Shown piece by piece: positions 48,563-64,000 of a stretch of 64,000 bases of DNA. Position 1 is the first letter of the stretch; each line of letters opens with the position of its first letter. The DNA comes from Desulfobulbaceae bacterium. GTDB lineage: Bacteria > Desulfobacterota > Desulfobulbia > Desulfobulbales > Desulfurivibrionaceae. Made by a program: the position numbers and the translations under genes. The DNA lies in assembly GCA_004332195.1 (NCBI GenBank), contig SJBG01000001.1, forward strand, positions 1 to 64,000. The letters are read 5' to 3'. The notes under the pieces are model-generated. The model was not told the DNA's origin. It saw nothing but the letters and a program-made list of their open reading frames with translations, and made no database searches.

Positions 48563-49726
48563 TCAGCTCTCGTTTTTACGTAAAAAGGTGGGACGTTCGT
48601 AGTCGTCTTCAAACATCGGTGGGAATGCCTTGCGTCTGACCTGAGAGATCACTTTGCGACCACGGTCATTGCTCACCCCAGCCAGCGGCAATTTCTGGAT
48701 CTTGGTCTCGCGCTTTGCCGCCAAAAGCAGGGGACGAACATGGTCGCCAAGATCAAAGCAATCCTCAATCGCTCTGATCCCGGTGGCGATCACCGTTACT
48801 CGCAACTCATCGCCAAGATTTTCGTCGAAAATAACCCCCAGGATGATACTAGCCTCCTCGTGGACATCCTCGTAAATTTTGGTGGTGGCTAAAGTAACTT
48901 CCGCCATGGTCAAAGTATCCTCGCGAGCGGAGATGTTAACCAACACCCCCTTGGCCCCATCGATGCTGATATCTTGGAGTAGCGGACTGGCAATAGCCAT
49001 ATTGACTGCCTCCACTGCTCGATTTTCCCCGACCCCGTGGCCGGATCCCATCAAAGCCGGGCCCATTTCATTCATCACCGTGCGCACATCGGCAAAGTCC
49101 GGATTAAGGTAGCCGGGAAGGTTAATCAGGTCCGCGATGCCTTTGACCGCCTGCACCAGGACGTCGTCGGCCATTTTCATGCCATCGATGAAGCGGGTGC
49201 CCTTTTGGGCCAACGAAATCAGACGATCATTGGGAATGGTGATAATTGTATCGACGTGGTCTTTTAGCTCACGCCAGCCGATCTCGGCATTTTTCATCCG
49301 GGACCGACCCTCAAAGGCAAAAGGCTTGGTGACCACCCCGACGGTGAGCGCTCCCATCTCCCTAGCCAGTTGGGCCACCACCGGCGCTCCTCCGGTCCCG
49401 GTGCCGCCTCCTAAGCCGGCGGTGACAAAAACCAGATCACAACCCCGCAGAACTTCACGAATTTCCTCGATCGACTCCTCCGCCGCCGATCGACCGACAT
49501 CAGGCTTGGCTCCAGCCCCCAGCCCTTTGGTCAGAGAAGGTCCGAGCTGGATTCGGATGTCAGCTTTAGACTGCTCCAGGGCCTGCACATCGGTATTACC
49601 GACAATGAACTCCACGCCCGTCAGACCGCTCTCCACCATGGTGTTTACCGCGTTGCCGCCGCCACCGCCAACACCGAACACCTTGATTTTCGCTCGAGAT
49701 TCCGATTCCGCTAATTTGAAAGACAT
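48563..49726 (-). CDS. ftsZ: Cell division protein FtsZ
   Basis: FtsZ is the tubulin-like GTPase of the Z-ring. The track start at 49945 overlaps ftsA; the ATG at 49726, preceded by GGGGGCA, gives 387 residues with a normal N-terminus (MSFKLAESESRAKIKVFGVGGGGGNAV). The GTP-binding GGGTGTGGAPVVA and T7 loop NPDFADVRTVM are intact. The C-terminal conserved peptide reads YERPTFLRKNES, so binding to FtsA should be possible. The linker is short. Confidence 0.97.
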   Translation of the reverse strand: MSFKLAESESRAKIKVFGVGGGGGNAVNTMVESGLTGVEFIVGNTDVQALEQSKADIRIQLGPSLTKGLGAGAKPDVGRSAAEESIEEIREVLRGCDLVFVTAGLGGGTGTGGAPVVAQLAREMGALTVGVVTKPFAFEGRSRMKNAEIGWRELKDHVDTIITIPNDRLISLAQKGTRFIDGMKMADDVLVQAVKGIADLINLPGYLNPDFADVRTVMNEMGPALMGSGHGVGENRAVEAVNMAIASPLLQDISIDGAKGVLVNISAREDTLTMAEVTLATTKIYEDVHEEASIILGVIFDENLGDELRVTVIATGIRAIEDCFDLGDHVRPLLLAAKRETKIQKLPLAGVSNDRGRKVISQVRRKAFPPMFEDDYERPTFLRKNES

Positions 49727-49856
49727 ATGCTGCCCCCGGTGATAAGTGATGAGCGCTGCGTGCTGCGTGCTGAACGTTATTTCGCCCCGGACATTCCTGT
49801 GCCGAAACAACTTATGACAAAAAAACTCAACGTCTAACCCTGTTGCCACACCTAAA

Positions 49857-51086
49857 TCATAATCTTTTAAACCAGTTCCGCATTCGACTACCAAACCGAG
49901 TAAACATCCCGTCTGAACCAGTCCGAAATCTGGCGGCCGGATCATACCGCATCCCGTAAATCACTAACCCGACCCCGGTGGCCCACTGAGGGGAATTCAC
50001 CATCTCATTAAGCCCTCCAATGTTTTCCGGAACACCGATCCGCACCGGCAGGTCGAAAATCTGCTCGGCCAGATCCTCCAGATGCTCCAGCATAGCCGTG
50101 CCACCGGTTAAAACCAGACCGGCGTTGACCATCTCTTTGTAGCGAGAGTTAGTCAATTCACGATTGATCAGGGTCAGTATTTCCTCCACCCGTGGTTCGA
50201 GAATCTCACCCATGACCCGTCGGGAAAGCCTTCGGGGGCTACGGCCACCAACACTGGGAACATCAATGAGCTGATCCTTATCAATCAGTGAAGACAAAGA
50301 ACAGCCGTATTGCTCCTTGAGTCTTTGGGCCTCTCTGAGCGGGGTCCGCAATCCAACAGAAAGATCATTGGTCAAACTGTGACCGCCTAAGCCAAGAACG
50401 AAAGTTTGCTTGATGGCGCCTCCGACAAAGACCGCCAAATCGGAAGTCCCCCCTCCGATATCGAGCAACCCCACCCCCAACTCCAGTTCCTCTCGAGTCA
50501 GGACCGCCTCCGCCGAAGCCAGGGACTCAAGAACCATATCGGTCACATTGAGACCGGCCCGGTTGCAACACCGGATAATATTATGAACCGCCGTCACCGA
50601 CCCGGTGACAATATGGACTTCGGCCTCCAGCCGAACTCCGGTCATTCCGATGGGATCTTGGATTTCGGGCTGGCCATCCACCATAAACTCCTGGGGCAAA
50701 ACGTGGATAATCTTCTGATCCTGAGGTATCGGCACCGCCCGAGCCGCATCCACCACTCGATTAATGTCATCCTGGCGAATTTCCCCGGAACGGATGGGGA
50801 TCAAGCCATGAGAATTAAACCCTTTGATGTGACTACCGGCAATTCCCACGAAAACCGAGCCTATTTCACAGTCGGCCATTTGCTCGGCCTCTTCCACCGC
50901 CCGACGAATCGAACCTACCGTGCTTTCAATATTGACCACCATCCCGCGGCGCAGACCCATCGAAGGCGCGCGCCCCACCCCGATTATTTTCACCTGCTGG
51001 TCGTCAATCTCGGCCACCACCACACAAACTTTGGTGGTCCCAATGTCCAAACCGACCAGCAACTCTCCCCGTACACCCTTACTCAT
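49857..51086 (-). CDS. ftsA: Cell division protein FtsA
   Basis: FtsA is an actin-like ATPase that ties FtsZ to the membrane. The 409-residue protein has VGLDIGTTKVCVVVAEI, the phosphate loop GVGLLDIGGGTSDLAVF and LVLTGGTAMLEHLED. The last residues (MFTRFGSRMRNWFKRL) form an amphipathic membrane-targeting helix. It lies 17 bases after ftsQ and 130 before ftsZ. Confidence 0.96.
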   Translation of the reverse strand: MSKGVRGELLVGLDIGTTKVCVVVAEIDDQQVKIIGVGRAPSMGLRRGMVVNIESTVGSIRRAVEEAEQMADCEIGSVFVGIAGSHIKGFNSHGLIPIRSGEIRQDDINRVVDAARAVPIPQDQKIIHVLPQEFMVDGQPEIQDPIGMTGVRLEAEVHIVTGSVTAVHNIIRCCNRAGLNVTDMVLESLASAEAVLTREELELGVGLLDIGGGTSDLAVFVGGAIKQTFVLGLGGHSLTNDLSVGLRTPLREAQRLKEQYGCSLSSLIDKDQLIDVPSVGGRSPRRLSRRVMGEILEPRVEEILTLINRELTNSRYKEMVNAGLVLTGGTAMLEHLEDLAEQIFDLPVRIGVPENIGGLNEMVNSPQWATGVGLVIYGMRYDPAARFRTGSDGMFTRFGSRMRNWFKRL

Positions 51087-51103: not shown

Positions 51104-51952
51104 CTATCTTTCAACCAAAACCCGGTCCGGGAGATAGTCCATGCGGATTGCTGAAGTTTCCGTGAAAGCCCGCTCCCGATGGAGCTGGCTCAGCACCCTG
51201 ACCAGACGATGATAATTCAACGAGACCGCCGGGCTCTTCCCCAGATATATGGGGAAGGGGCGGCTGACCAGAAACATGATCATGGCCCCATCCGCGTCAA
51301 TATTGATCTCCGAGATCCCCTGGGCCGGCAAAACTACCCCACCGCGATCCGCCAAACGAATAAGGTTTAAGGCCTGTTTTACGGCCTGACGCTGTCGATT
51401 CGGCAGTCCATCCCATGAACTCAGACCAGTAATCACCGGGAAATCCAGATCCCCCGGCAAAGCCCGAGCAAAGGGCTTAGCGAAATGATCCGTGTAATAA
51501 AGGCCCTCAGGCAAACTCAACAGGGCCAGCGGCTGTCGCTCGCGCACCGTAATTTGCAAACGATTGGGCCACTTGCGACTAACTGTTGCCGACTCAATCC
51601 AATCGTGGGCCTCTATCTTGGTCCGAATCCTGCGGGGAGACAAGGCCAGCAGGTTACTATGGACATCAACCCCACTCAAAGCCAAAACCTGTTTTTGCGT
51701 GATCCGGACACAACCATCGATCCTGATCGCAGTAATTTGGAAAAAAGCCGACTGCCCCAATTGCTGCCAAACCAGCAGGCCCCCGAGAACGACAAGCGCC
51801 AGTAGGCATGCCAGCGCCACTCCAAGTACCGCTAGTCTGCCGATAAACCAGGAGGAGGCCGAGGCGGCGTAACCAGCGGGTCTGGTCAATCGGCCGGACC
51901 TGTCGGATCCGGTCCGCAATCGCCAACCACCTTGTTTCACCGGCTTTTTCAT
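51104..51952 (-). CDS. ftsQ: Cell division protein FtsQ
   Basis: FtsQ is a bitopic divisome protein that in other bacteria recruits FtsB, FtsL and the FtsW-FtsI synthase. The 282-residue protein has one membrane helix (about 38-58, LAVLGVALACLLALVVLGGLLV), a POTRA domain (ITAIRIDGCVRITQKQVLALSGVD) and an FtsQ domain ending DYLPDRVLVER. It overlaps murB by four bases (ATGA). Confidence 0.92.
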   Translation of the reverse strand: MKKPVKQGGWRLRTGSDRSGRLTRPAGYAASASSWFIGRLAVLGVALACLLALVVLGGLLVWQQLGQSAFFQITAIRIDGCVRITQKQVLALSGVDVHSNLLALSPRRIRTKIEAHDWIESATVSRKWPNRLQITVRERQPLALLSLPEGLYYTDHFAKPFARALPGDLDFPVITGLSSWDGLPNRQRQAVKQALNLIRLADRGGVVLPAQGISEINIDADGAMIMFLVSRPFPIYLGKSPAVSLNYHRLVRVLSQLHRERAFTETSAIRMDYLPDRVLVER

Positions 51953-53160: not shown

Positions 53161-54573
53161 CTAGGCTGCCTGATTTTTGACTGCCATGGTCGTGGACTCT
53201 TTCTCCAGGATGGCCAGAATGCTCTCCCCGGCCCGCCAAATATCGCCGGCCCCCATAGTTAGAACCACATCCCCGGAAACTAAGACGGGAGCCACCGCGG
53301 CTGGCAGGTCGGCAAGGTCGGGGATATATTCCACCGCCTTCTGGCCGTGGCTGCGCAAAGCCCGCGTCAAAGCATCCCCAGCCACCGCGGCGATGGGCTC
53401 TTCACCGGCGGCATAAATATCACTGAGAATCACCAGATCGGCATCATGAAACGCGGTACAAAACTCCGGAAAAAGCCCGGCGGTCCGGCTGTAACGATGA
53501 GGTTGAAAAAGCACCACCAGGCGTCGCTTCGGCCAAGCGGCGCGCAGGGCCGCCAGGGTGACTCGAATTGCGGTGGGGTGATGACCGTAATCATCGATTA
53601 ACATAATCCCATTAACCTCTCCCTTGATCTGCAAGCGCCGCTGCACGCCAGTGTAATTGCCCAAAGCCCTGGTAATTACCGCAAAATCAATTTCCAGCTC
53701 CAAACCCAGAGCCACCACCGCCAGGGCATTATAAACGTTGTGTCGACCCGGCACCGAAAGCGTCATCTTGCCCAGAGCCCGACCGCGATGCCATACCTCA
53801 AAGCGGGAGATAAAACCCCGAGCGGTAATCTCCCGGGCCTGGATATCGGCCTGAGGGGTCAATCCGTAAGTGATGATTCGCTTGCGAATCAAGGGCAACA
53901 GCGCGGCGACATTGGGGTCATCCAGGCAAAGAATAGCGGCCCCATAAAAGGGAATTCGGTTGATAAACTCCAGAAAAGCCGCCTTAACCGCCTCCAGGTC
54001 GGAATAATGGTCAACGTGATCCAGTTCTATATTGGTAATAATTTCCAAAACCGGTGAGAGTTTCAAGAAAGAGCCGTCGGATTCATCGGCTTCAGCCACC
54101 AGAAAGTCACCATTCCCCAACTTGGCATTAGAGCCGAGGTTGTTGACCTGACCACCGATGACCACGGTGGGATCAAGCCCGGCCTCGGCCAGCAGGACCC
54201 CAGCCATGGAAGTGGTGGAAGTCTTACCGTGCGTGCCGGCCACCGCAATTCCGTTGATCTTGAGGCGCATCAACTCGGCCAGCATTTCAGCTCGGGGAAT
54301 TACCGGAATGCCCGCTGAATATGCCGCGCTCACCTCCGGGTTATCCGACCGCACCGCCGAGGAGATCACCACCACGTCAGCGCCTTCAATCCAGTGCGGG
54401 GAATGTCCAATCTTAATCTGGCCGCCAAGTTTGGCCAGCCGTCGGGTGATCCGACTCTCCCGTAGATCGGAGCCGCTGATTCGGTAACCCAGGTTGAGCA
54501 GCAGCTCGGCGATCCCGCTCATGCCGATTCCACCTATTCCGATAAAGTGGATATGTTGGTTTTTGCGATACAT
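53161..54573 (-). CDS. murC: UDP-N-acetylmuramate-L-alanine ligase MurC
   Basis: MurC adds L-Ala to UDP-MurNAc. The 470-residue protein shows the N-terminal Rossmann motif HFIGIGGIGMSGIAELL, ATP-binding GTHGKTSTTSM (about 115), NIELDHVDHY and DDYGHHPTAI. It is complete. It is separated from murG by 285 bases that hold a family A repeat. Confidence 0.97.
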   Translation of the reverse strand: MYRKNQHIHFIGIGGIGMSGIAELLLNLGYRISGSDLRESRITRRLAKLGGQIKIGHSPHWIEGADVVVISSAVRSDNPEVSAAYSAGIPVIPRAEMLAELMRLKINGIAVAGTHGKTSTTSMAGVLLAEAGLDPTVVIGGQVNNLGSNAKLGNGDFLVAEADESDGSFLKLSPVLEIITNIELDHVDHYSDLEAVKAAFLEFINRIPFYGAAILCLDDPNVAALLPLIRKRIITYGLTPQADIQAREITARGFISRFEVWHRGRALGKMTLSVPGRHNVYNALAVVALGLELEIDFAVITRALGNYTGVQRRLQIKGEVNGIMLIDDYGHHPTAIRVTLAALRAAWPKRRLVVLFQPHRYSRTAGLFPEFCTAFHDADLVILSDIYAAGEEPIAAVAGDALTRALRSHGQKAVEYIPDLADLPAAVAPVLVSGDVVLTMGAGDIWRAGESILAILEKESTTMAVKNQAA

Positions 54574-54858: not shown

Positions 54859-55953
54859 TTATTTTCGTTTAGCCGCCAGGCTCTCGTCAATAATTGTGGC
54901 AGCCGCGTCAGGCCGGGACAACTTGCGGGCCTTAATTCCCATCATTTGCCGGTCGGCTTCATTGTGCAATAAGGCCTTAATCTGCTCGGCTAGTTCGTCG
55001 GCGCTCAAACCGTCTTCCGTCAGCAACCGGGCCGCCCCCCGCCGGACCATGATCTCGGCGTTTAACCGTTGGTGATCATCAGTGGCAAAGGGATAGGGGA
55101 TCAGCAGCGCCGCCTTGCCGAAAAGAGCCAGTTCCGCCAGGGTGGTGGCCCCGGCCCGGGAGATCACCAGATCAACCGCTAAGTATTCCGCCGCCATGTC
55201 AGGGATAAATGCCTCAACTCGGGCCCTGACTCCCGCCCGACGATACCCTTCTTCAGTCGACCCCCGGTCCTGTTGTCCGGTTTGGTGGCTAAGCTCAAAA
55301 TCTACCCCGTCTGCGGCCAGCTTTCGGGCCGCCTCAACCATCAACAGATTGATCCGGCGCGCCCCCTGACTACCACCCAAAACCAGCAGCCGGGGAGGCT
55401 TGCGCCCAGCTTCTGGTCTTGCGGGCAAGGCGGCGGCAGCCAGCAATTCCCGCCGCAATGGGTTGCCCACCAGAGAGGTTTTGGCCGCCGGGAAATAATT
55501 GCCGCTTATCGGCAACGACAAAAAAATATGATCGACCAAGGGGCCCAAAAGGCGGTTGGCCAAACCCGGCACCGAATTCTGTTCATGAATGCAAGCGGTA
55601 ATTCTCAGTAAGCGGGCCGCGATTAAAACCGGGCCGGTCACATAACCACCTACCCCCAGAACCAGATCGGGGCGAAACTCGCGCAGCAGGCTGAGAGCCT
55701 GGCCAAACCCCAGCGGAATCCGGGCCAACGCCGACAAACGACGCCGCCAGGAAACACCTTTCAAGCCGCCGCCGGTTAAAACCGCTTGACGGTAAGGTTT
55801 TTCCGCCAAGGCCAGCCGATCAATTTCTCGACCGGGACTGATAAAGAGTACTTCGCTCCCCGGGTAACGGGACAGCAACTCGTCAGCCACCGCAATCCCG
55901 GGAAAAAGATGGCCGCCGGTACCACCACCGGCGATCACCAGCTTAACTTTCAT
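54859..55953 (-). CDS. murG: Lipid II synthase MurG
   Basis: MurG transfers GlcNAc to lipid I at the inner face of the membrane. The 364-residue GT-B protein begins KLVIAGGGTGGHLFPGIAVADELL and contains HEQNSVPGLANRLLG, LVLGGSQGARRIN and DLVISRAGATTLAELALFGKAALLIPYPFATDDHQ. It follows murD by 41 bases, the place where ftsW lies in the canonical cluster. Confidence 0.97.
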   Translation of the reverse strand: MKVKLVIAGGGTGGHLFPGIAVADELLSRYPGSEVLFISPGREIDRLALAEKPYRQAVLTGGGLKGVSWRRRLSALARIPLGFGQALSLLREFRPDLVLGVGGYVTGPVLIAARLLRITACIHEQNSVPGLANRLLGPLVDHIFLSLPISGNYFPAAKTSLVGNPLRRELLAAAALPARPEAGRKPPRLLVLGGSQGARRINLLMVEAARKLAADGVDFELSHQTGQQDRGSTEEGYRRAGVRARVEAFIPDMAAEYLAVDLVISRAGATTLAELALFGKAALLIPYPFATDDHQRLNAEIMVRRGAARLLTEDGLSADELAEQIKALLHNEADRQMMGIKARKLSRPDAAATIIDESLAAKRK

Positions 55954-55994
55954 TAACCCTCAATCCTCAGCTCTCGGCCCTCATTCATCGCTCA

Positions 55995-57497
55995 TCACTC
56001 GTCATTCAGGGGCAAGGCCAACTCCCGGACCGCCCTACGGAAAACCTCACTCCTCTGAGCATAACCGGAGAACATATCAAAACTGGCGCAGGCTGGAGAA
56101 AGCAGCACAATCCCGTCCCGGGTTGCCAATTGATGGGCAAGCCCCACCGCCTCAGGCAAATTGGATGCGGCCTCTACTCGAACGGTATTGGCGAAAGCCT
56201 TCGTCATCTTCTCCCGGGCCGAGCCAATCAGGACCATGGCTTTGACCTTATCGCGAACCACCGGCAACAGCAGGCGATAATCCCCGCCTTTGTCCAGGCC
56301 ACCGGCAATCAGGACCACCGGTCGGTCCATGCCCCGCAGGGCCGATTCCACCGCTCCAATATTGGTAGCTTTAGAGTCGTCATAATACCGCACACCGTTA
56401 ATTTCGGCCACTAAAGCCAAACGGCAGGGCAAGGGCCTAAAGGAACTCAGGCCCCGCCGCACCGCAGCCGACGGGCAATCGGCCAGCCGAGCGGCCAGCA
56501 CGGCGGCCAAGGCATTCTGGCGGTTGGGTTCGGTGGCCATTGCGGTAGCACTCAGATCATATTCTTCACAATCGCAGTCGGCAAAAATGAACTCCGCATT
56601 GGGGTCATCAGCATTAGAATCATTAAAGTCAGGACCCAACTTTCGCGATGGCTCCGAGGCAGAACTGTCCGCCTTTTCCAGGCAAATACTTATCTTGTAG
56701 GGCTCAGGCAACATCCTTTGCTTGATGTTTGAATTTTCTTTTTTCACCGGTCCAGCCCATCCCTGAGAACCAAAGCCATATACCCTGCCCGCCAGTGGGC
56801 CAGCGGCCAGCATCCGAACGATTTCCTGATCTTCCCAGTTGATGATGGCCCAACTATTTCGCTCTTGGTGGGTAAACATTTTCCATTTGGCCGCAGCATA
56901 AGCCGTGAAATTCGGATATCGATCCAGGTGATCGGGAGAAATATTAAGCAGCAAGCCGATTTGAGGGCGGAAATCGCCAGCACTGTCCAGCTGAAAACTG
57001 CTGACCTCCAGCACCACCCAATCGGCATCCTGGTAGCCGGCCAGATACTCGCACAAGGGGGTACCGAGATTGCCGCCGACAAAAACTTTTTTCCCAGCCG
57101 ATCGCAACATCTCCCCAATCAGGGTAGTCACCGTACTCTTGCCGTTGGTGCCGGTTATGGCAATCACCGGCGTTTGCAGGTAAGCGGGAGCCAAGGCTAA
57201 CTCGCCAAAAATTGCCACCCCGGCCCGACGGGCTGCCGCCAGGGCGGGAATATTCAGGGGAACGCCAGGGCTAAGCAAAATAGCATCCACCCGGGTAAAA
57301 AACTTAAGTGAATGCCCGCCCAGTTCGTAGTGAATCTTCAACGTCTCAAGCCAAGTCGCGACCTCGCTCAGTGCCGACAGGTCTCGGCTGCCTTCGGACA
57401 CCGAGATCTGCACCCCCTGCTTAAGCAAAAAACGGATCGCCGCAAGTCCGGACTTACCCAAGCCCACAACCAACACATGCTTGCCTGTAAGATTCAT
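55995..57497 (-). CDS. murD: UDP-N-acetylmuramoylalanine-D-glutamate ligase MurD with an odd insertion
   Basis: MurD adds D-Glu. The preferred start (57497, MNLTGKHVLVVGLGKSG) gives 500 residues, longer than the usual 440-450. ATP-binding GTNGKSTVTTLIGEM, SPDHLDRY and YYDDSKATNIGAVESALRG are present. The surplus is an acidic low-complexity stretch of about 60 residues near 255-320 (ADSSASEPSRKLGPDFNDS and NADDPNAEF) in the central domain, which is not a family feature. Confidence 0.95.
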   Translation of the reverse strand: MNLTGKHVLVVGLGKSGLAAIRFLLKQGVQISVSEGSRDLSALSEVATWLETLKIHYELGGHSLKFFTRVDAILLSPGVPLNIPALAAARRAGVAIFGELALAPAYLQTPVIAITGTNGKSTVTTLIGEMLRSAGKKVFVGGNLGTPLCEYLAGYQDADWVVLEVSSFQLDSAGDFRPQIGLLLNISPDHLDRYPNFTAYAAAKWKMFTHQERNSWAIINWEDQEIVRMLAAGPLAGRVYGFGSQGWAGPVKKENSNIKQRMLPEPYKISICLEKADSSASEPSRKLGPDFNDSNADDPNAEFIFADCDCEEYDLSATAMATEPNRQNALAAVLAARLADCPSAAVRRGLSSFRPLPCRLALVAEINGVRYYDDSKATNIGAVESALRGMDRPVVLIAGGLDKGGDYRLLLPVVRDKVKAMVLIGSAREKMTKAFANTVRVEAASNLPEAVGLAHQLATRDGIVLLSPACASFDMFSGYAQRSEVFRRAVRELALPLNDE

Positions 57498-57527
57498 CTC
57501 CCCCAAAATCCTCCCACCTTGTAAGCA

Positions 57528-57673
57528 GCTCACCAGGTCTATTAAATTTAGCAAAAATCAGAGCGGTAAAAGTTTACCAGCGCTTCAGCTTCGTTAATTT
57601 GGGTCTTTGAAGCATAGTTTACTATTCGAAAAGGCCAAAATGGGCGAAGATGGGGTGCTGGTAAACTTTTACC
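57528..57673. repeat. Repeat family C, copy 3, supplying the mraY stop codon
   Basis: A roughly 146 bp element starts CTCACCAGGTCTATTAAATTTAGC and holds the palindromic core from GGTAAAAGTTTACC to GGTAAACTTTTACC. The last bases, read on the minus strand, give the TAA that ends mraY (57669-57671). It fills the mraY-murD space. Confidence 0.85.
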
Positions 57674-58748
57674 TTAACTTCAGAGTGGCAATGGCCAGCA
57701 ACCCCAGCACGATAGAAATAATCCAAAAGCGAACCACCACCTTGGGTTCCGGCCACCCTTTTTCCTCAAAATGATGATGAAAGGGAGCCATCAAAAAAAT
57801 CCGCTTACCGCCGCTCATCTTGAAAAAACCCACCTGCAGGATCACCGACAGCGCCTCCATGACAAAAACCCCACCAACAATAACTAAAAGAAACTCCTGC
57901 TTGGTAATGATCGCTACCATACCCAGAGCCGCGCCAATGGCCAGTGAGCCGACATCACCCATGAAAACTTGCGCCGGATAGGTGTTGAACCAGAGAAAGC
58001 CCAGACTGGCCCCCACCAGAGCGCCACTGAAAACCGCAACCTCCCCAGCCCCTGGCACATGAGGGATATGAAGATGGGCGGCAAACAACGCATGCCCTGC
58101 CAAATAGGCAAACAGCAGATAAACAGCGCCGGTGACCACCACCGGGCCGGTCATCAATCCGTCAAGCCCGTCGGTAAGATTGACGGCATTAGAGGCTCCC
58201 ACCACCACCAACAGGGCGAAAAGGATGTAGAAGACTCCAAGATCAGGTCGCAAGTATTTGAAAAAAGGAAAACTCAACTGACTATCAAAGCCCGGCATCA
58301 GGTAAAGGACGACAATGGCAGTCCCAGCTCCAAGGACTTGCAGCAAAAGCTTAGCGCTTACACTTAAACCCTTACTGTTCCGCCGGCGAATCTTGCGGTA
58401 GTCGTCATAGGCCCCGATGGCCCCAAACCATACAAGCACCGCCAAAATCAGCCAAACAAAATGGTTGCTTAAATCAATCCAGAGCAGGGTGGTTAAAATC
58501 ACCACCGCCAGAATCAGCAACCCACCCATGGTCGGAACCCCTTGCTTCGAATAATGGCTCTTAGGCCCATCTTTCCGCACTACTTGGCCAATGTGATGAC
58601 TTTTGATCCAGTTGATAAAAACCGGTCCCAGCACCAAAACCAACAGGAAAGCGGTTAACGCCGACCCGATACAACGAAAGGTGATATAACGAAAAACGTG
58701 GAGTACGCTTAAATACTCATGCAAGGGGAATAACAAATGATAGAGCAT
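57669..58748 (-). CDS. mraY: Phospho-N-acetylmuramoyl-pentapeptide transferase MraY
   Basis: MraY makes lipid I from UDP-MurNAc-pentapeptide and undecaprenyl phosphate. The 359-residue, ten-helix protein shows GPKSHYSKQGVPTMGGLLIL, the aspartate motifs GAYDDYRK and NLTDGLDGL, FMGDVGSLAIGAALG and MAPFHHHFE. Its ATG overlaps the murF stop by one base. Its own stop codon lies within the end of a family C repeat. Confidence 0.97.
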   Translation of the reverse strand: MLYHLLFPLHEYLSVLHVFRYITFRCIGSALTAFLLVLVLGPVFINWIKSHHIGQVVRKDGPKSHYSKQGVPTMGGLLILAVVILTTLLWIDLSNHFVWLILAVLVWFGAIGAYDDYRKIRRRNSKGLSVSAKLLLQVLGAGTAIVVLYLMPGFDSQLSFPFFKYLRPDLGVFYILFALLVVVGASNAVNLTDGLDGLMTGPVVVTGAVYLLFAYLAGHALFAAHLHIPHVPGAGEVAVFSGALVGASLGFLWFNTYPAQVFMGDVGSLAIGAALGMVAIITKQEFLLVIVGGVFVMEALSVILQVGFFKMSGGKRIFLMAPFHHHFEEKGWPEPKVVVRFWIISIVLGLLAIATLKLR

Positions 58749-60310
58749 TATTCTTGCTCCCGGCTGGTGTTGCTTAAACCATCAATGATAGTTTCCATTG
58801 CCATCCCCCGGGAAGCCTTGACCAAGACCAGATCCTCGGCTACCAGATCCCCTTTTCTAACCGCGGCAACCAGCCAGTCCTTAACTTCCTCTTTGTCATC
58901 GCAAATCCGAATCCGCTCGGCCGACATCCCGGCTCGTCGAGCGGCGGCGGCGGTTTCAGCGGCGTATTCACCCACCGTCAGCAGATAATTAAAGCCGAGC
59001 AATGCCACCTTTGCCCCGATAAAACGATGCGCCCCCGGACTATGCCCACCCAGTTCCAGCATGTCACCCAGCACCGCCACCACCCTGCGGTGACGTCGCA
59101 GGTTGTGCACGGTTTCCAAAGCCGCCAACATGGATGCGGGGTTGGCGTTGTAGCTGTCGTCAATCAACTTCAACCCTGCGAAAAACGGTTGAATCCGCAA
59201 GCGCTTAGCAAAGGGACGGTAGTGTAAAAGACCGGCGATAATATCGGCGGGACTAATACCCGCGGCTCGCGCCATGGCGGCGGCGGCTAAAGCGTTTTGA
59301 ACATTGTGCTCCCCCAAGGCGGCAATTTGAACCCGGCGAGGACTATCATCAGTCATCCTCAGGGTAAAACTCATACCGTCTTGCCCTAGGCCACGCAGGT
59401 GGGTAGCCCGAATCATCGCCCCACGGGCGCGCCCGAAAGTGATTAGTCTATGGGGCAAATTGTTGGTCAGTTTCCTGATTCGTTTATCGTCCAAGTTTAC
59501 CACCAGGGTGGTCCAGGGCTCCATTCCTCGAAAAAGCTCCCCTTTGGCCCGCGCCACCCCCGCAAGATCACCCACCCCAGCTAAGTGGGCCGCCTGAACG
59601 TTGGTAATACAGGCGATGTCCGGCCGGGCAATTGCCGCCATCCGATCGATCTCGCCAAAACGGTTCATGCCCATTTCAAGCACCGCGAATTCGTGCTGTT
59701 CATTCACCGACAATAATGACAAGGGCAGCCCGATAAGATTATTAAGGTTGCCGCGAGTTTTGAGAACCCGATGGCGCCGGGCCAAAATGGTGGCGATCAT
59801 TTCTTTAACCGTGGTTTTGCCCGAACTGCCGGTAATCGCCAAAACCTGAAGATGCCGCATCCGGTTGCGACGGTAATGAGCCAAGTCCCCCAAAGCTCGC
59901 AGAGTGTCGGCAACCAGAACCACCGGCACCGACACCGGCAGACTTTCGGCGGGAGACTTTTCTAGAATCAAACCGGCAGCCCCTTGGCGTATCGCCTCCC
60001 CAACAAAGGCATGACCATCGAATTTCTCTCCCTTAAGAGCGATAAAAAGATCGCCGACTTCAATGGTACGGCTGTCTGAGGAAACCAGGCGAAAAACCGA
60101 TGCGCTGTGTTGGCCCCAAAGGCGACCGCCGGTGGCCAGCAAAACTTGAGCCAGGGTCCAAACCGGACTCTGAGCCAGGGCAAAACCATAGCCAAACTCA
60201 GCTCGACGACAAGTTCGCCGCCAAACGCCATTTTCTTCGTGTACTCCTGCAGGTCCCATACTTTGCCCTTGATAAACGATTGCTGTTGCACTTGCATGTT
60301 GCCAAAGCAC
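58748..60310 (-). CDS. murF: UDP-MurNAc-tripeptide D-Ala-D-Ala ligase MurF
   Basis: MurF adds the D-Ala-D-Ala dipeptide. Motifs are SSDSRTIEVGDLFIALKGEKFDGH, ATP-binding ITGSSGKTTVKEM, NVQAAHLAGVG and LIDDSYNANPASMLAAL. The start is uncertain: a GTG at 60310 overlapping the end of murE has AAGG upstream, and an ATG at 60259 gives 503 residues. The N-terminal 40 or so residues are not conserved. It is tightly linked to murE and mraY. Confidence 0.93.
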   Translation of the reverse strand: MLWQHASATAIVYQGQSMGPAGVHEENGVWRRTCRRAEFGYGFALAQSPVWTLAQVLLATGGRLWGQHSASVFRLVSSDSRTIEVGDLFIALKGEKFDGHAFVGEAIRQGAAGLILEKSPAESLPVSVPVVLVADTLRALGDLAHYRRNRMRHLQVLAITGSSGKTTVKEMIATILARRHRVLKTRGNLNNLIGLPLSLLSVNEQHEFAVLEMGMNRFGEIDRMAAIARPDIACITNVQAAHLAGVGDLAGVARAKGELFRGMEPWTTLVVNLDDKRIRKLTNNLPHRLITFGRARGAMIRATHLRGLGQDGMSFTLRMTDDSPRRVQIAALGEHNVQNALAAAAMARAAGISPADIIAGLLHYRPFAKRLRIQPFFAGLKLIDDSYNANPASMLAALETVHNLRRHRRVVAVLGDMLELGGHSPGAHRFIGAKVALLGFNYLLTVGEYAAETAAAARRAGMSAERIRICDDKEEVKDWLVAAVRKGDLVAEDLVLVKASRGMAMETIIDGLSNTSREQE

Positions 60311-60319
60311 TCAGGCGCC

Positions 60320-62101
60320 TTATGCCAATATTGCCAATTGCTCCCTGATGACTTCCTGTCGGTCGTCAAAAAAACTGCTGACCCCACCCACTGTCTGGGT
60401 GTTTTCATGGCCTTTACCGCAAATCAGCACGACATCGCCGGGGCGGGTCCGCAACAAGGTGTCCCTGATTGCCTGGCGACGAGATACTACCAAATCATAA
60501 CCCTTGAACATGTTTGCCGCCCCCAACAAACACTCCAAACGGCAACGTTGCGACCCGACGCTCAATAGACCACGCTCAATTGCGGCGATGATTGCGGAAC
60601 TCTGCTCACTTCGGGGATTATCCGAAGTCAGAATCACGATATCGGCTAAACTGGCGGCAATTTTCCCCATTAAAGGCCGTTTGCCCCGATCCCGATCGCC
60701 ACCACAGCCAAAAATCGTAATCAAACGTCTCGGGGCAAGGCGACGAAGGGTCCGCAGGACTTGGGCCAGGGCATCGGGGGTATGGGCGTAGTCGACAAAA
60801 ACCTCTACCCCGTGATGAGAGGTGAAACGCTCTAGGCGCCCCGGCACCGCTCCGGCGTTGGCCAGGCCGGCGCTTATCTGCTCAACATTCAGTCCCAGTG
60901 CCAAGCCAACACCTGCCACGCCAAGGAGGTTATCAAGGTTGAAGTTTCCCACCATGGTGGAGCGCAAAGTCCACTGACCAGCCACTCCCGTCAAATGCGC
61001 TTCGATTCCGGCCAGACTGCTACGACTGGTCAGCACCTGCAATTCCCCACGATCACCGCCACAACGAAAAAGCCGAAGAGCAGCCTTGCCCCGACCCGAC
61101 TCGTCAGCGGGGGTGGCCAAAGGTTGCAACACTGCGATTAAACGTTGGCTCCAGTTCTCGTTTCCATTTCGGCGCTCGCCTTCATTTCCATTCCCGTTTC
61201 CACTCTCATACCCATGCCCATGCCCATTCCCAGTCCTGTTCCCGTTATCAATGTCCTCTTGTTTCCGGCCAACAACCACCACCGCCGCCCCCTGAGGTTT
61301 GAGGTGATGGGAAAAAAGGCGCTGTTTACAGGTGAAATAACTTTGCATGTTACCGTGGTAATCCAAATGTTCACGGCTGAGATTGGTAAACAGGGCCACA
61401 TCAAAAAGAATCCCCGCCACCCGACCTTGGTCAAGGGCGTGGGAGGAGACCTCCATGATCACATGAGTGACTCCGGCATTAGCCATTTCCCGCAGCAATT
61501 GTTGTAGGCTCTCCGGTTCGGGGGTGGTGTGGGGAGCCGGCACAACCTGGTCCCGATAACGATAGTTGATTGTGCCGATCACCCCTGGTTCCCCGCCGTT
61601 AAAACGAATCAACTCCTCCAGCAAATAGGCGGAGGTGGTTTTGCCGTTGGTCCCGGTGATGCCGATCATAATCATTTCACGGGCGGGGAATCCTCGCAGG
61701 GCGGCACAAAGCCGACCAAAGGCGGCCCGGGGGTTGTCGGTCGTCAAATACAGGATTTCATGGCCGTCGGGGGTGATCGCCGGTCTTTTTTGATCAACAG
61801 CGGCAGCGGTATCAACCGCGGCGGTGGTGGTGATCGTTGTGCCGGGAGCTGTTGTGCCGCCTGCCCTGAGCGGCAGGTTGTTGCGTCGGCCAGTAAGCAC
61901 CACCCGACAGCCGCGGGTTCTGGCATCAGCAATATATTCCCGTCCATCAACTTTGGTCCCCATCAAGGCAACAAACAGTGAATCCTCCCCAGCTCGGCGC
62001 GAATCGGCGGTGACCGCGGTCACCGTCAAATCGTCGAGGTTTCTCCCGGAATCAACCGAGTAGTCCACCTTGGCCGCTTTAAATAGCGCGGTCACATTCA
62101 T
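60320..62101 (-). CDS. murE: UDP-MurNAc-tripeptide synthetase MurE with low-complexity insertions
   Basis: MurE adds the third residue of the stem peptide. ATP-binding GITGTNGKTTSAYLLEELI is present and LTSDNPRSEQ contains the DNPR motif linked to meso-diaminopimelate use. At 593 residues it is about 90 longer than usual. Two in-frame low-complexity insertions explain this: a Thr/Ala-rich one near residue 90 (GTTAPGTTITTTAAVDTAAA) and a Gly/Asn-rich one near 290 (NGHGHGYESGNGNGNEGERR) encoded by CCATTCC-like simple repeats. Its ATG overlaps the end of the ftsI-like gene. Confidence 0.95.
   Translation of the reverse strand: MNVTALFKAAKVDYSVDSGRNLDDLTVTAVTADSRRAGEDSLFVALMGTKVDGREYIADARTRGCRVVLTGRRNNLPLRAGGTTAPGTTITTTAAVDTAAAVDQKRPAITPDGHEILYLTTDNPRAAFGRLCAALRGFPAREMIMIGITGTNGKTTSAYLLEELIRFNGGEPGVIGTINYRYRDQVVPAPHTTPEPESLQQLLREMANAGVTHVIMEVSSHALDQGRVAGILFDVALFTNLSREHLDYHGNMQSYFTCKQRLFSHHLKPQGAAVVVVGRKQEDIDNGNRTGNGHGHGYESGNGNGNEGERRNGNENWSQRLIAVLQPLATPADESGRGKAALRLFRCGGDRGELQVLTSRSSLAGIEAHLTGVAGQWTLRSTMVGNFNLDNLLGVAGVGLALGLNVEQISAGLANAGAVPGRLERFTSHHGVEVFVDYAHTPDALAQVLRTLRRLAPRRLITIFGCGGDRDRGKRPLMGKIAASLADIVILTSDNPRSEQSSAIIAAIERGLLSVGSQRCRLECLLGAANMFKGYDLVVSRRQAIRDTLLRTRPGDVVLICGKGHENTQTVGGVSSFFDDRQEVIREQLAILA
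61165..61260. repeat. Simple-sequence tract inside murE
   Basis: Plus-strand sequence is made of degenerate hexamers such as CCCATG, CCCATT and CCCGTT. It encodes the Gly/Asn-rich insertion of MurE and keeps the reading frame. Confidence 0.75.
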
Positions 62102-64000
62102 GGTTGCCGACCTCGACTGCTGTTACCAACCACCGTCAAATTGTCGCTATCCCTCCGCAGTTCAATGATCCCCTCGCTGATCCCCTCCAGGGCCACGCCG
62201 GGAGCGGGATGTTGGGCAACAACCCGGCCGCTGCCCTGCACCTGAATTCGTAAACCGGATGTCTGTAAACCCTGCAGGGCCTTGCGCAGGCTCAGGCCCA
62301 AAACATCAGGCATGTAATCGGGAGAACGATTGCCCACCACCTGAGTTTGTAGCCCCTCTTTTTCCCGCGTGCTTAACCACTGCCGATACAAGGTGTCTTC
62401 ACGGACCGTGATGATTCCCGGCAGCGGTGGAATAATCGGGTGACGCAAGGTCGCGCTCCAGCGGTCAAGATCCCTGACGATCCCGGGCAACGGCGAGGGC
62501 AAAGTCAGATCAATTCGAGCCCGGTCGATAAAGACCAGGGCCACCAGGGTCGGATGCCTGGCTGGAGCCATCCCCAGCATAACTGCTTGATAACGACGCG
62601 GCTCCTCTATCTCCAGATTGGCGTCTTGTCTGTTTTCCGTTCCGCCCGGCAGAGCCAAGCTTGCTAGCTCAGCAGACTCCTGCCGGGTTTGCGTGATCAA
62701 ACCTGGTTCCGACTCTTCGTTGACCAAAGGACCAGCCACGACAGCTAAATCGCCAAGATCAGCGGTCTTCGTCTGTTCGTCAAAGAACAAATGGCCTGGC
62801 CCCGCCCCCCAAGTCACCAGACTCTCAAAAGTGACGACTGTTTTTGAATCGCCAGCCATGGCGATCAATTCCTGCCGCAAAGCCTGGCCGGCAGCATCCG
62901 GAAAAATCCCCTCGGTTGCTCTCGGTTTATGCCGCCAAAACTGCTCTCCATCCCAGAATCCCTTGATCAGATGGGGCTCCACCACCTCACCACCGTTAAA
63001 CAAGCGACTAAAGGCAGTCAACAAGGAGATCCCGCTAACCGTGCGCAAGGCCGCAGCTCGCTGCGTAGCGCCTTCATCCTTATAGCCACCGGTGGCGGTC
63101 AGCGCCCGGTTTAAACTCCGGATTTCCAGCAAATCCAGAGCGCCGGCTGCGCAAAGCTCAATCTGCCGCAAAAAAGTTTCCGCCGACTTAGTCTTTGTCC
63201 GGGGAATGCCAGCCAGGTTGGCAGAGGCATAGATCCCCGGCTCCCATTCATACCAATCTCTCTTTGAGTCCACGGCCCCCGCAAGCGGAATTATGGCCGC
63301 AGTACCTTGTTTATGGGCCACCGCTCGGCTGAACAATGCTCGCAACGCCCCCAGATGGACCTGAGTCACTACGGCGCGATTAAGCCGTTCATCGGTGCCG
63401 ACCATCCAAAAACGATTGGGATCGTAGGTGGGGAGACTGGCCATGGCTACCACCTCTCCACGGCTAATATCCATTATCACTGCTGCCGCCGAGTCACCGT
63501 CAACCGCCCTCATCGCCCGAGCCAACCTTTGCTCCAGCTCTTGCTGCAACGTCAAATCCAAGGTGCTAACCACATGAACACCAGAGGCGGCCACCACCCT
63601 TTCGGGCACCCCGGCAGCCGCCAAACGAATGTCTGAAATTCCGCCGCGCAGGATATCGTCGTACGCCAACTCGATGCCGGCCAAGCCCTGCTCATCCCGG
63701 ACAAAACCCACAACATGAGCAGCTCCCGTCTGCTGCGGATAATAACGGTGGAATCGGGGCATAACGTGGATTCCCGGCAGATTACCCGCCAGTACCATAT
63801 CCACCACTTCCTTGCCCGCCTGACGGGTTAACCAAACAACACCGCGTTCACGGCGGAAAGATTCCAGTAGTTGTTCCCGATCCAGGTTCAAAAGTCGAGC
63901 CAACTCGACGGCAGTCCCCTCGGGATCGACAATTTCAAGGGGGCGGGCGTAGAGCGAGTTGAGCTGCAAGCTTAGGGCCAGGATATCAAAATTACGATCA
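62098..64000 (-). CDS. FtsI-like class B penicillin-binding protein lacking SxxK and KTG, with C-terminal PASTA domain (5' end off window)
   Basis: The frame stays open to the window edge, so the N-terminus and membrane helix are outside. Visible are the RNFDILALSLQLNSLYARP start of the dimerisation domain, RYYPQQTGAAHVVGFVRDEQGLAGIE, the transpeptidase fold start AAAVIMDISRGEVVAMASLPTYDPN, and a PASTA domain (PDVLGLSLRKALQGL). In the ungapped match of NRAVVTQVHLGALRALFSR to the usual NRAVTDTFEPGSTFKVFLA, the nucleophile Ser is Ala 208 (counting from 63969) and the Lys is Ala. SxN is kept as SAN near 249. No KTG or KSG occurs. The gene occupies the ftsI position and overlaps murE by four bases. 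It looks like a pseudo-transpeptidase; that it is non-catalytic is an inference. Confidence 0.85.
   Translation of the reverse strand, partial: DRNFDILALSLQLNSLYARPLEIVDPEGTAVELARLLNLDREQLLESFRRERGVVWLTRQAGKEVVDMVLAGNLPGIHVMPRFHRYYPQQTGAAHVVGFVRDEQGLAGIELAYDDILRGGISDIRLAAAGVPERVVAASGVHVVSTLDLTLQQELEQRLARAMRAVDGDSAAAVIMDISRGEVVAMASLPTYDPNRFWMVGTDERLNRAVVTQVHLGALRALFSRAVAHKQGTAAIIPLAGAVDSKRDWYEWEPGIYASANLAGIPRTKTKSAETFLRQIELCAAGALDLLEIRSLNRALTATGGYKDEGATQRAAALRTVSGISLLTAFSRLFNGGEVVEPHLIKGFWDGEQFWRHKPRATEGIFPDAAGQALRQELIAMAGDSKTVVTFESLVTWGAGPGHLFFDEQTKTADLGDLAVVAGPLVNEESEPGLITQTRQESAELASLALPGGTENRQDANLEIEEPRRYQAVMLGMAPARHPTLVALVFIDRARIDLTLPSPLPGIVRDLDRWSATLRHPIIPPLPGIITVREDTLYRQWLSTREKEGLQTQVVGNRSPDYMPDVLGLSLRKALQGLQTSGLRIQVQGSGRVVAQHPAPGVALEGISEGIIELRRDSDNLTVVGNSSRGRQP

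Follow-up and report, generated by a model that had tools for sequence, protein, structure and literature searches.

In nearly all bacteria, FtsW is regarded as the polymerase that builds the dividing wall; together with FtsI it has been described, to our knowledge, as indispensable everywhere for making the septal wall. C. difficile is the clear exception that we found: its vegetative septum is made by a class A PBP (aPBP), and RodA-PBP2 serves elongation only (PMC10693644; PMC12539705). Closer to the genome studied here, ftsW and ftsN are absent from four Desulfobulbaceae (cable bacteria and Desulfobulbus), in which rodA clusters with PBP2 and mre genes (PMC7873302), and in Thermodesulfobacteria ftsW has been lost from the dcw cluster (PMC8871954). 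The first of these reports concerns the same order as ours but covers four genomes only; in the parts of it available to us, FtsI is treated as a normal enzyme and no coupling of its state to that of ftsW is described. The second, as far as its accessible text goes, deals with the gene content of the cluster and discusses neither FtsI nor genome-wide SEDS content.

The genome analysed here meets the C. difficile type of complement, with apparently FtsZ-based division, no functional FtsW or FtsI, and RodA-PBP2 and class A PBPs remaining (PMC10693644, PMC12539705). The two differ in what is left of the dcw synthases. C. difficile still keeps catalytic ones, SpoVE and SpoVD, for sporulation, whereas here there is no dcw SEDS protein and FtsI is a pseudoenzyme. 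Moreover, FtsQLB is dispensable for vegetative division in C. difficile, whereas it is retained here, where a septal role for an aPBP is inferred only.

The window, that is, the whole stretch of DNA analysed, covers the opening 64 kb of contig C1 in a draft genome (1,659,679 bp in 21 contigs, rated 100% complete). The genome is apparently reduced, as its genus mates measure 2.8-3.1 Mb at 99-100% completeness. The dcw genes of the window whose coordinates follow all lie on the minus strand. An initial sequence-only reading had placed about 41 bases between murD (55995..57554) and murG (54859..55953), the usual place of ftsW; the junction measures exactly 41 bp (55954..55994), holds no gene and leaves no room for ftsW. 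We assigned murG by position and homology to dcw orthologues, and murD, murF (58748..60310), murE (60320..62101) and murC (53161..54573) by their dcw orthologues; mraY occupies 57669..58748. That reading had also taken FtsZ, FtsA and FtsQ to be kept, and all three are present: ftsA (49857..51086) matches TIGR01174 at 466 bits, ftsZ (48563..49945) was read from its translation, the listed open reading frame probably having extra codons upstream of the true start, and ftsQ (51104..51952), at its expected place before ftsA, rests on a weak NCBIfam FtsQ match below the cut-off (E 1.4e-8). FtsL likewise gives only a weak, below-cut-off match at its expected place, and FtsB is over the cut-off of PF04977 (63.9 bits). 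No PF05036 match, which would indicate a SPOR-domain or FtsN-type protein, was found anywhere in the genome.

The reading's claim that the window encodes no SEDS protein was borne out by a PF01098 profile search of the window and its contig. The sole PF01098 match in the genome (E 1.2e-103) lies at C4:40081-41127; it passes the rodA equivalog TIGR02210 (418 bits, cut-off 336.7) and fails the ftsW equivalog TIGR02614 (302 bits, cut-off 337.5). Its gene is the last of an mreB-mreC-mreD-PBP2-rodA operon, and the protein carries the catalytic Asp motif HTD (ERHTDF) in its fourth extracellular loop. The only SEDS protein of this genome is RodA, not FtsW. PF00905 detects four transpeptidase-type proteins, namely a complete PBP2 adjoining RodA, two class A PBPs, and FtsI with a domain fragment only. 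An ordinary ftsW together with a complete ftsI elsewhere in the genome would have refuted the idea of loss; a genome-wide search for SEDS proteins and FtsI, which the earlier reading had proposed, found no such pair, no ftsW at all and no second catalytically complete bPBP, and RodA-PBP2 is the only intact SEDS-bPBP pair. One of the class A PBPs (1098 aa, L008:2747-6043, on contig C15) carries a long insert within its transpeptidase region; it could be the septal enzyme, and so could the comparable frames of ~1080-1180 aa that most genomes of the order encode.

As the genome is a 21-contig draft, an ftsW might be present but missed because of an assembly gap, because it was relocated or because it had diverged too far for the profile. 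We weigh this against 58 genomes from 15 families of the order (inferred to be Desulfobulbales). A single SEDS match was found in 55 of the 58; in one genome a single gene is split into two neighbouring pieces, and the other two genomes, both less complete, have no match. The closed genome of a genus mate (G002, a single contig of 3,097,763 bp) also has a single SEDS gene, and since it is in the same state, the assembly-gap objection is removed. The identical search finds two SEDS proteins in the majority of the phylum's other families, and FtsI is dead in parallel. On the evidence of the whole-genome search and of the closed genome we reject relocation and an assembly gap, and we give the notion of an overlooked ftsW next to no credence. 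G149, a 99% complete genome of the same order, has no SEDS match, which may be an assembly gap or a further loss.

The rest of the picture is likewise shared across the order. The rodA gene directly adjoins an intact PBP2 gene in this genome and in 29/29 relatives whose locus was read (two SxxK and one KTG regex misses among these PBP2 proteins are short or variant reads), and murD and murG are neighbours without ftsW in every order cluster read. Apart from class A PBPs, the order genomes have one strong transpeptidase match, the PBP2 beside RodA. FtsI from 44 relatives across the 15 families, four of them fragments, has none of SxxK, SxN and KTG. The sequence-only reading had suggested that at this locus the septal synthase had lost both its halves or had them replaced, with the division ring kept. 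The loss and the kept ring stand, but the restriction to this locus does not: as inferred from these comparisons, the loss of ftsW and of the FtsI active site is ancestral to the whole order and beyond.

The degenerate FtsI that the same reading had noted is real. Its gene runs on beyond the window (62098..64000 within it, full gene C1:62101-64209) and encodes 703 aa. From the N-terminus on come a membrane segment or anchor, the PBP_dimer pedestal, the eroded remains of a transpeptidase domain and, at the C-terminus, a PASTA domain. SxxK, SxN and KTG are all gone, and the place of SxxK reads GALRALF. By descent the protein is FtsI: the pedestal is above the cut-off of PF03717, and the gene holds the dcw place between ftsL and murE. 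Its sequence relatives in the PDB are mostly FtsI/PBP3 and match only residues ~71-300. In an AlphaFold2 model with a mean pLDDT of 71.5, the pedestal and PASTA are predicted confidently, and the score drops under 50 in some stretches of the active-site half. The PDB structures that match this fold best are PBP2X, SpoVD and P. aeruginosa PBP3, and the overall superposition is loose.

Is this FtsI, then, simply a functionless pseudogene decaying after the loss of ftsW? The disappearance of every catalytic motif could be read that way, as could the shrinkage of the protein to 250-560 aa in sister families. Against this, the frame has stayed open across 15 families, and between close relatives dN/dS is 0.05-0.19 in the pedestal and 0.09-0.14 in the PASTA end, compared with 0.28-0.33 in the transpeptidase remnant (NG86, three pairs; dS is ~1, so the values are approximate). 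Conserved sites are concentrated in the pedestal, at the beginning of the transpeptidase domain and in PASTA, with invariant residues in the pedestal and PASTA, and the PASTA end persists even in the shortest versions. On the strength of dN/dS and conservation we reject decay, which strikes us as very improbable. Because its pedestal is under purifying selection, FtsI looks like a maintained scaffold, a pseudoenzyme rather than a decaying gene. It appears to be needed for something that requires its frame and not its chemistry; the scaffold role itself is inferred. There is precedent in B. subtilis, where catalytically dead PBP2B (S309A) still supports division as a structural component (PMC5656894). 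That protein differs in being a laboratory point mutant for which PBP3 supplies transpeptidation, whereas the inactive FtsI described here is found in nature, is of ancient origin and has no FtsW beside it. That ftsW and FtsI catalysis were lost while a pseudo-FtsI was maintained is a conclusion we hold with great confidence.

In the phylum as a whole, the SEDS search found two genes in most genomes and one in several families, and we read the dcw regions of 40 genomes for the state of FtsI. All 17 clusters with ftsW encode an FtsI with SxxK, SSN and KTG (17/17), including one SxxK variant, PGSMFK, that was checked; apparent absences of SxxK in ftsW-bearing genomes were regex misses only (EMGSxxK, PGSMFK and similar). 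None of the three motifs is found in FtsI from the 19 clusters without ftsW, one of which ends after murD; these clusters come from 12 families outside the order (f27, f33, f37, f38, f61, f62, f68, f73, f74, f83, f87 and f96). In the remaining four, the contig or stretch ended before the place of ftsW, and FtsI is intact. A lone SEDS gene can also be the dcw ftsW, as in families f28, f32 and f91 and in a handful of individual genomes, and there FtsI is intact. In the ftsW-less families outside the order, the single SEDS gene again lies downstream of a PBP2. The matches listed for a wide range of named bacteria agree: where ftsW is in the cluster, the FtsI motifs are present, apart from split or incomplete reads, and they are missing from three clusters that lack ftsW, two of which come from near this order. 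Judged by these predicted genes and motifs, the presence of ftsW and of FtsI catalytic motifs go together in the dcw clusters read.

Several features of the ftsW-less families were recorded alongside. A conserved polytopic protein of ~262 aa with no Pfam family stands at the place of ftsW between murD and murG in f33/f61 (L108:4985-5779, L109:5007-5792, L114:4892-5683 and L117:8679-9467); hhalign against FtsW gave a probability of 4%, and we do not claim it as an FtsW remnant. G215, of family f61, has a second, divergent SEDS gene (locus L164, G215:C51:16181-17161), possibly acquired, overlapping or beside a bPBP-like frame. A suspicion that RodA of f37/f73 is catalytically dead was dropped, as the alignment shows HTD/NTD kept. 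In several families (f62, f74, f83 and f87) murE and murF are apparently fused into one frame of ~980-1040 aa (L118:3532-6468, L121:8033-11032, L122:3457-6414, L123:8002-11115 and L124:8003-10960; L165 and L166 are alike).

In a tree built from seven dcw proteins, one ftsW-less clade unites the order with f27 and nine further families, and f33+f61 fall elsewhere; a single group for all ftsW-less rows is moderately rejected (AU p = 0.03). A faster FastTree tree also split off f27, giving three independent losses, a number reduced to at least two under the better model. As far as these reconstructions can tell, ftsW and FtsI catalysis were lost jointly at least twice, independently. The reduction of FtsI comes in grades: full-length but dead in the order and f27, then ~455-563 aa, ~410 aa, ~330 aa and finally 250-345 aa, the shortest versions having little beyond the anchor and the PASTA end.

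With no FtsW and a dead FtsI, the septum must come from other enzymes, and class A PBPs and RodA-PBP2 are the only candidate synthases found. Class A PBPs are encoded in 75/75 ftsW-less genomes examined, several of which have exactly one. MreB is strong in all ftsW-less genomes examined but one (G043, with a weak match only). Since aPBP and MreB are kept throughout, the comparative data do not separate a septum built by an aPBP from double duty by RodA-PBP2; none of the genomes examined lacks ftsW together with MreB or an aPBP, the combination that could tell the two polymerase models apart.

Our best explanation is that an ancestor of the order and its sister lineages deleted ftsW and lost the transpeptidase active site of FtsI, which may have been kept as a non-catalytic divisome scaffold (anchor, pedestal and PASTA) beside FtsZ, FtsA, FtsQ, FtsL and FtsB. 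A class A PBP, recruited via FtsQLB and pseudo-FtsI, would then polymerise and cross-link the septum, and RodA-PBP2 would stay with MreB for elongation, as we infer. Alternatively, RodA-PBP2 may make both lateral and septal wall, this pair standing in for FtsWI at the Z-ring, where pseudo-FtsI and FtsQLB would recruit or activate it. Nearly all ftsW-less genomes have no SEDS-bPBP pair other than RodA-PBP2, whose catalytic motifs are kept. FtsQLB is retained as well, as is the pedestal of FtsI; in other bacteria these are what activates a SEDS-bPBP pair. On the other hand, rodA has not been duplicated and still sits in the mre operon, MreB is kept with no sign of release from elongation, and C. 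difficile, with a similar complement, limits RodA-PBP2 to elongation (PMC10693644). We regard double duty as a serious possibility that falls somewhat short of an even chance. The tie of RodA-PBP2 to MreB and the use of an aPBP by C. difficile, whose complement is similar, are why we lean to the class A PBP. Its role as septal synthase is inferred, with no experiment or interaction data behind it, and could go either way. That class A PBPs are retained says little for a septal role, since bacteria commonly have them anyway. The FtsQLB and pseudo-FtsI retained here, unlike the dispensable FtsQLB of C. difficile, would fit recruitment of RodA-PBP2 equally well. The best explanation taken whole, with the loss, the scaffold FtsI and the class A PBP septum, is in our estimate evenly balanced between right and wrong.

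Of these results, the absence of ftsW was already known in part; what is apparently new is the loss of the FtsI active site and its coupling to the loss of ftsW. We found no report of either, in a literature search that missed most subscription journals and bioRxiv preprints, and novelty is not proven. We think it probable that, across a large diderm clade with at least two joint losses, FtsQLB and an ancient, selected, dead FtsI recruit a polymerase other than FtsW, be it a class A PBP or RodA-PBP2. A whole order and its sister families lack FtsW and have a naturally dead FtsI that evolution keeps. In FtsI, scaffolding and catalysis are thereby set apart, and the question is raised of which enzyme can replace FtsWI. 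The answer bears on how the multicellular cable bacteria divide, and cultured Desulfurivibrio and Desulfobulbus should allow tests.
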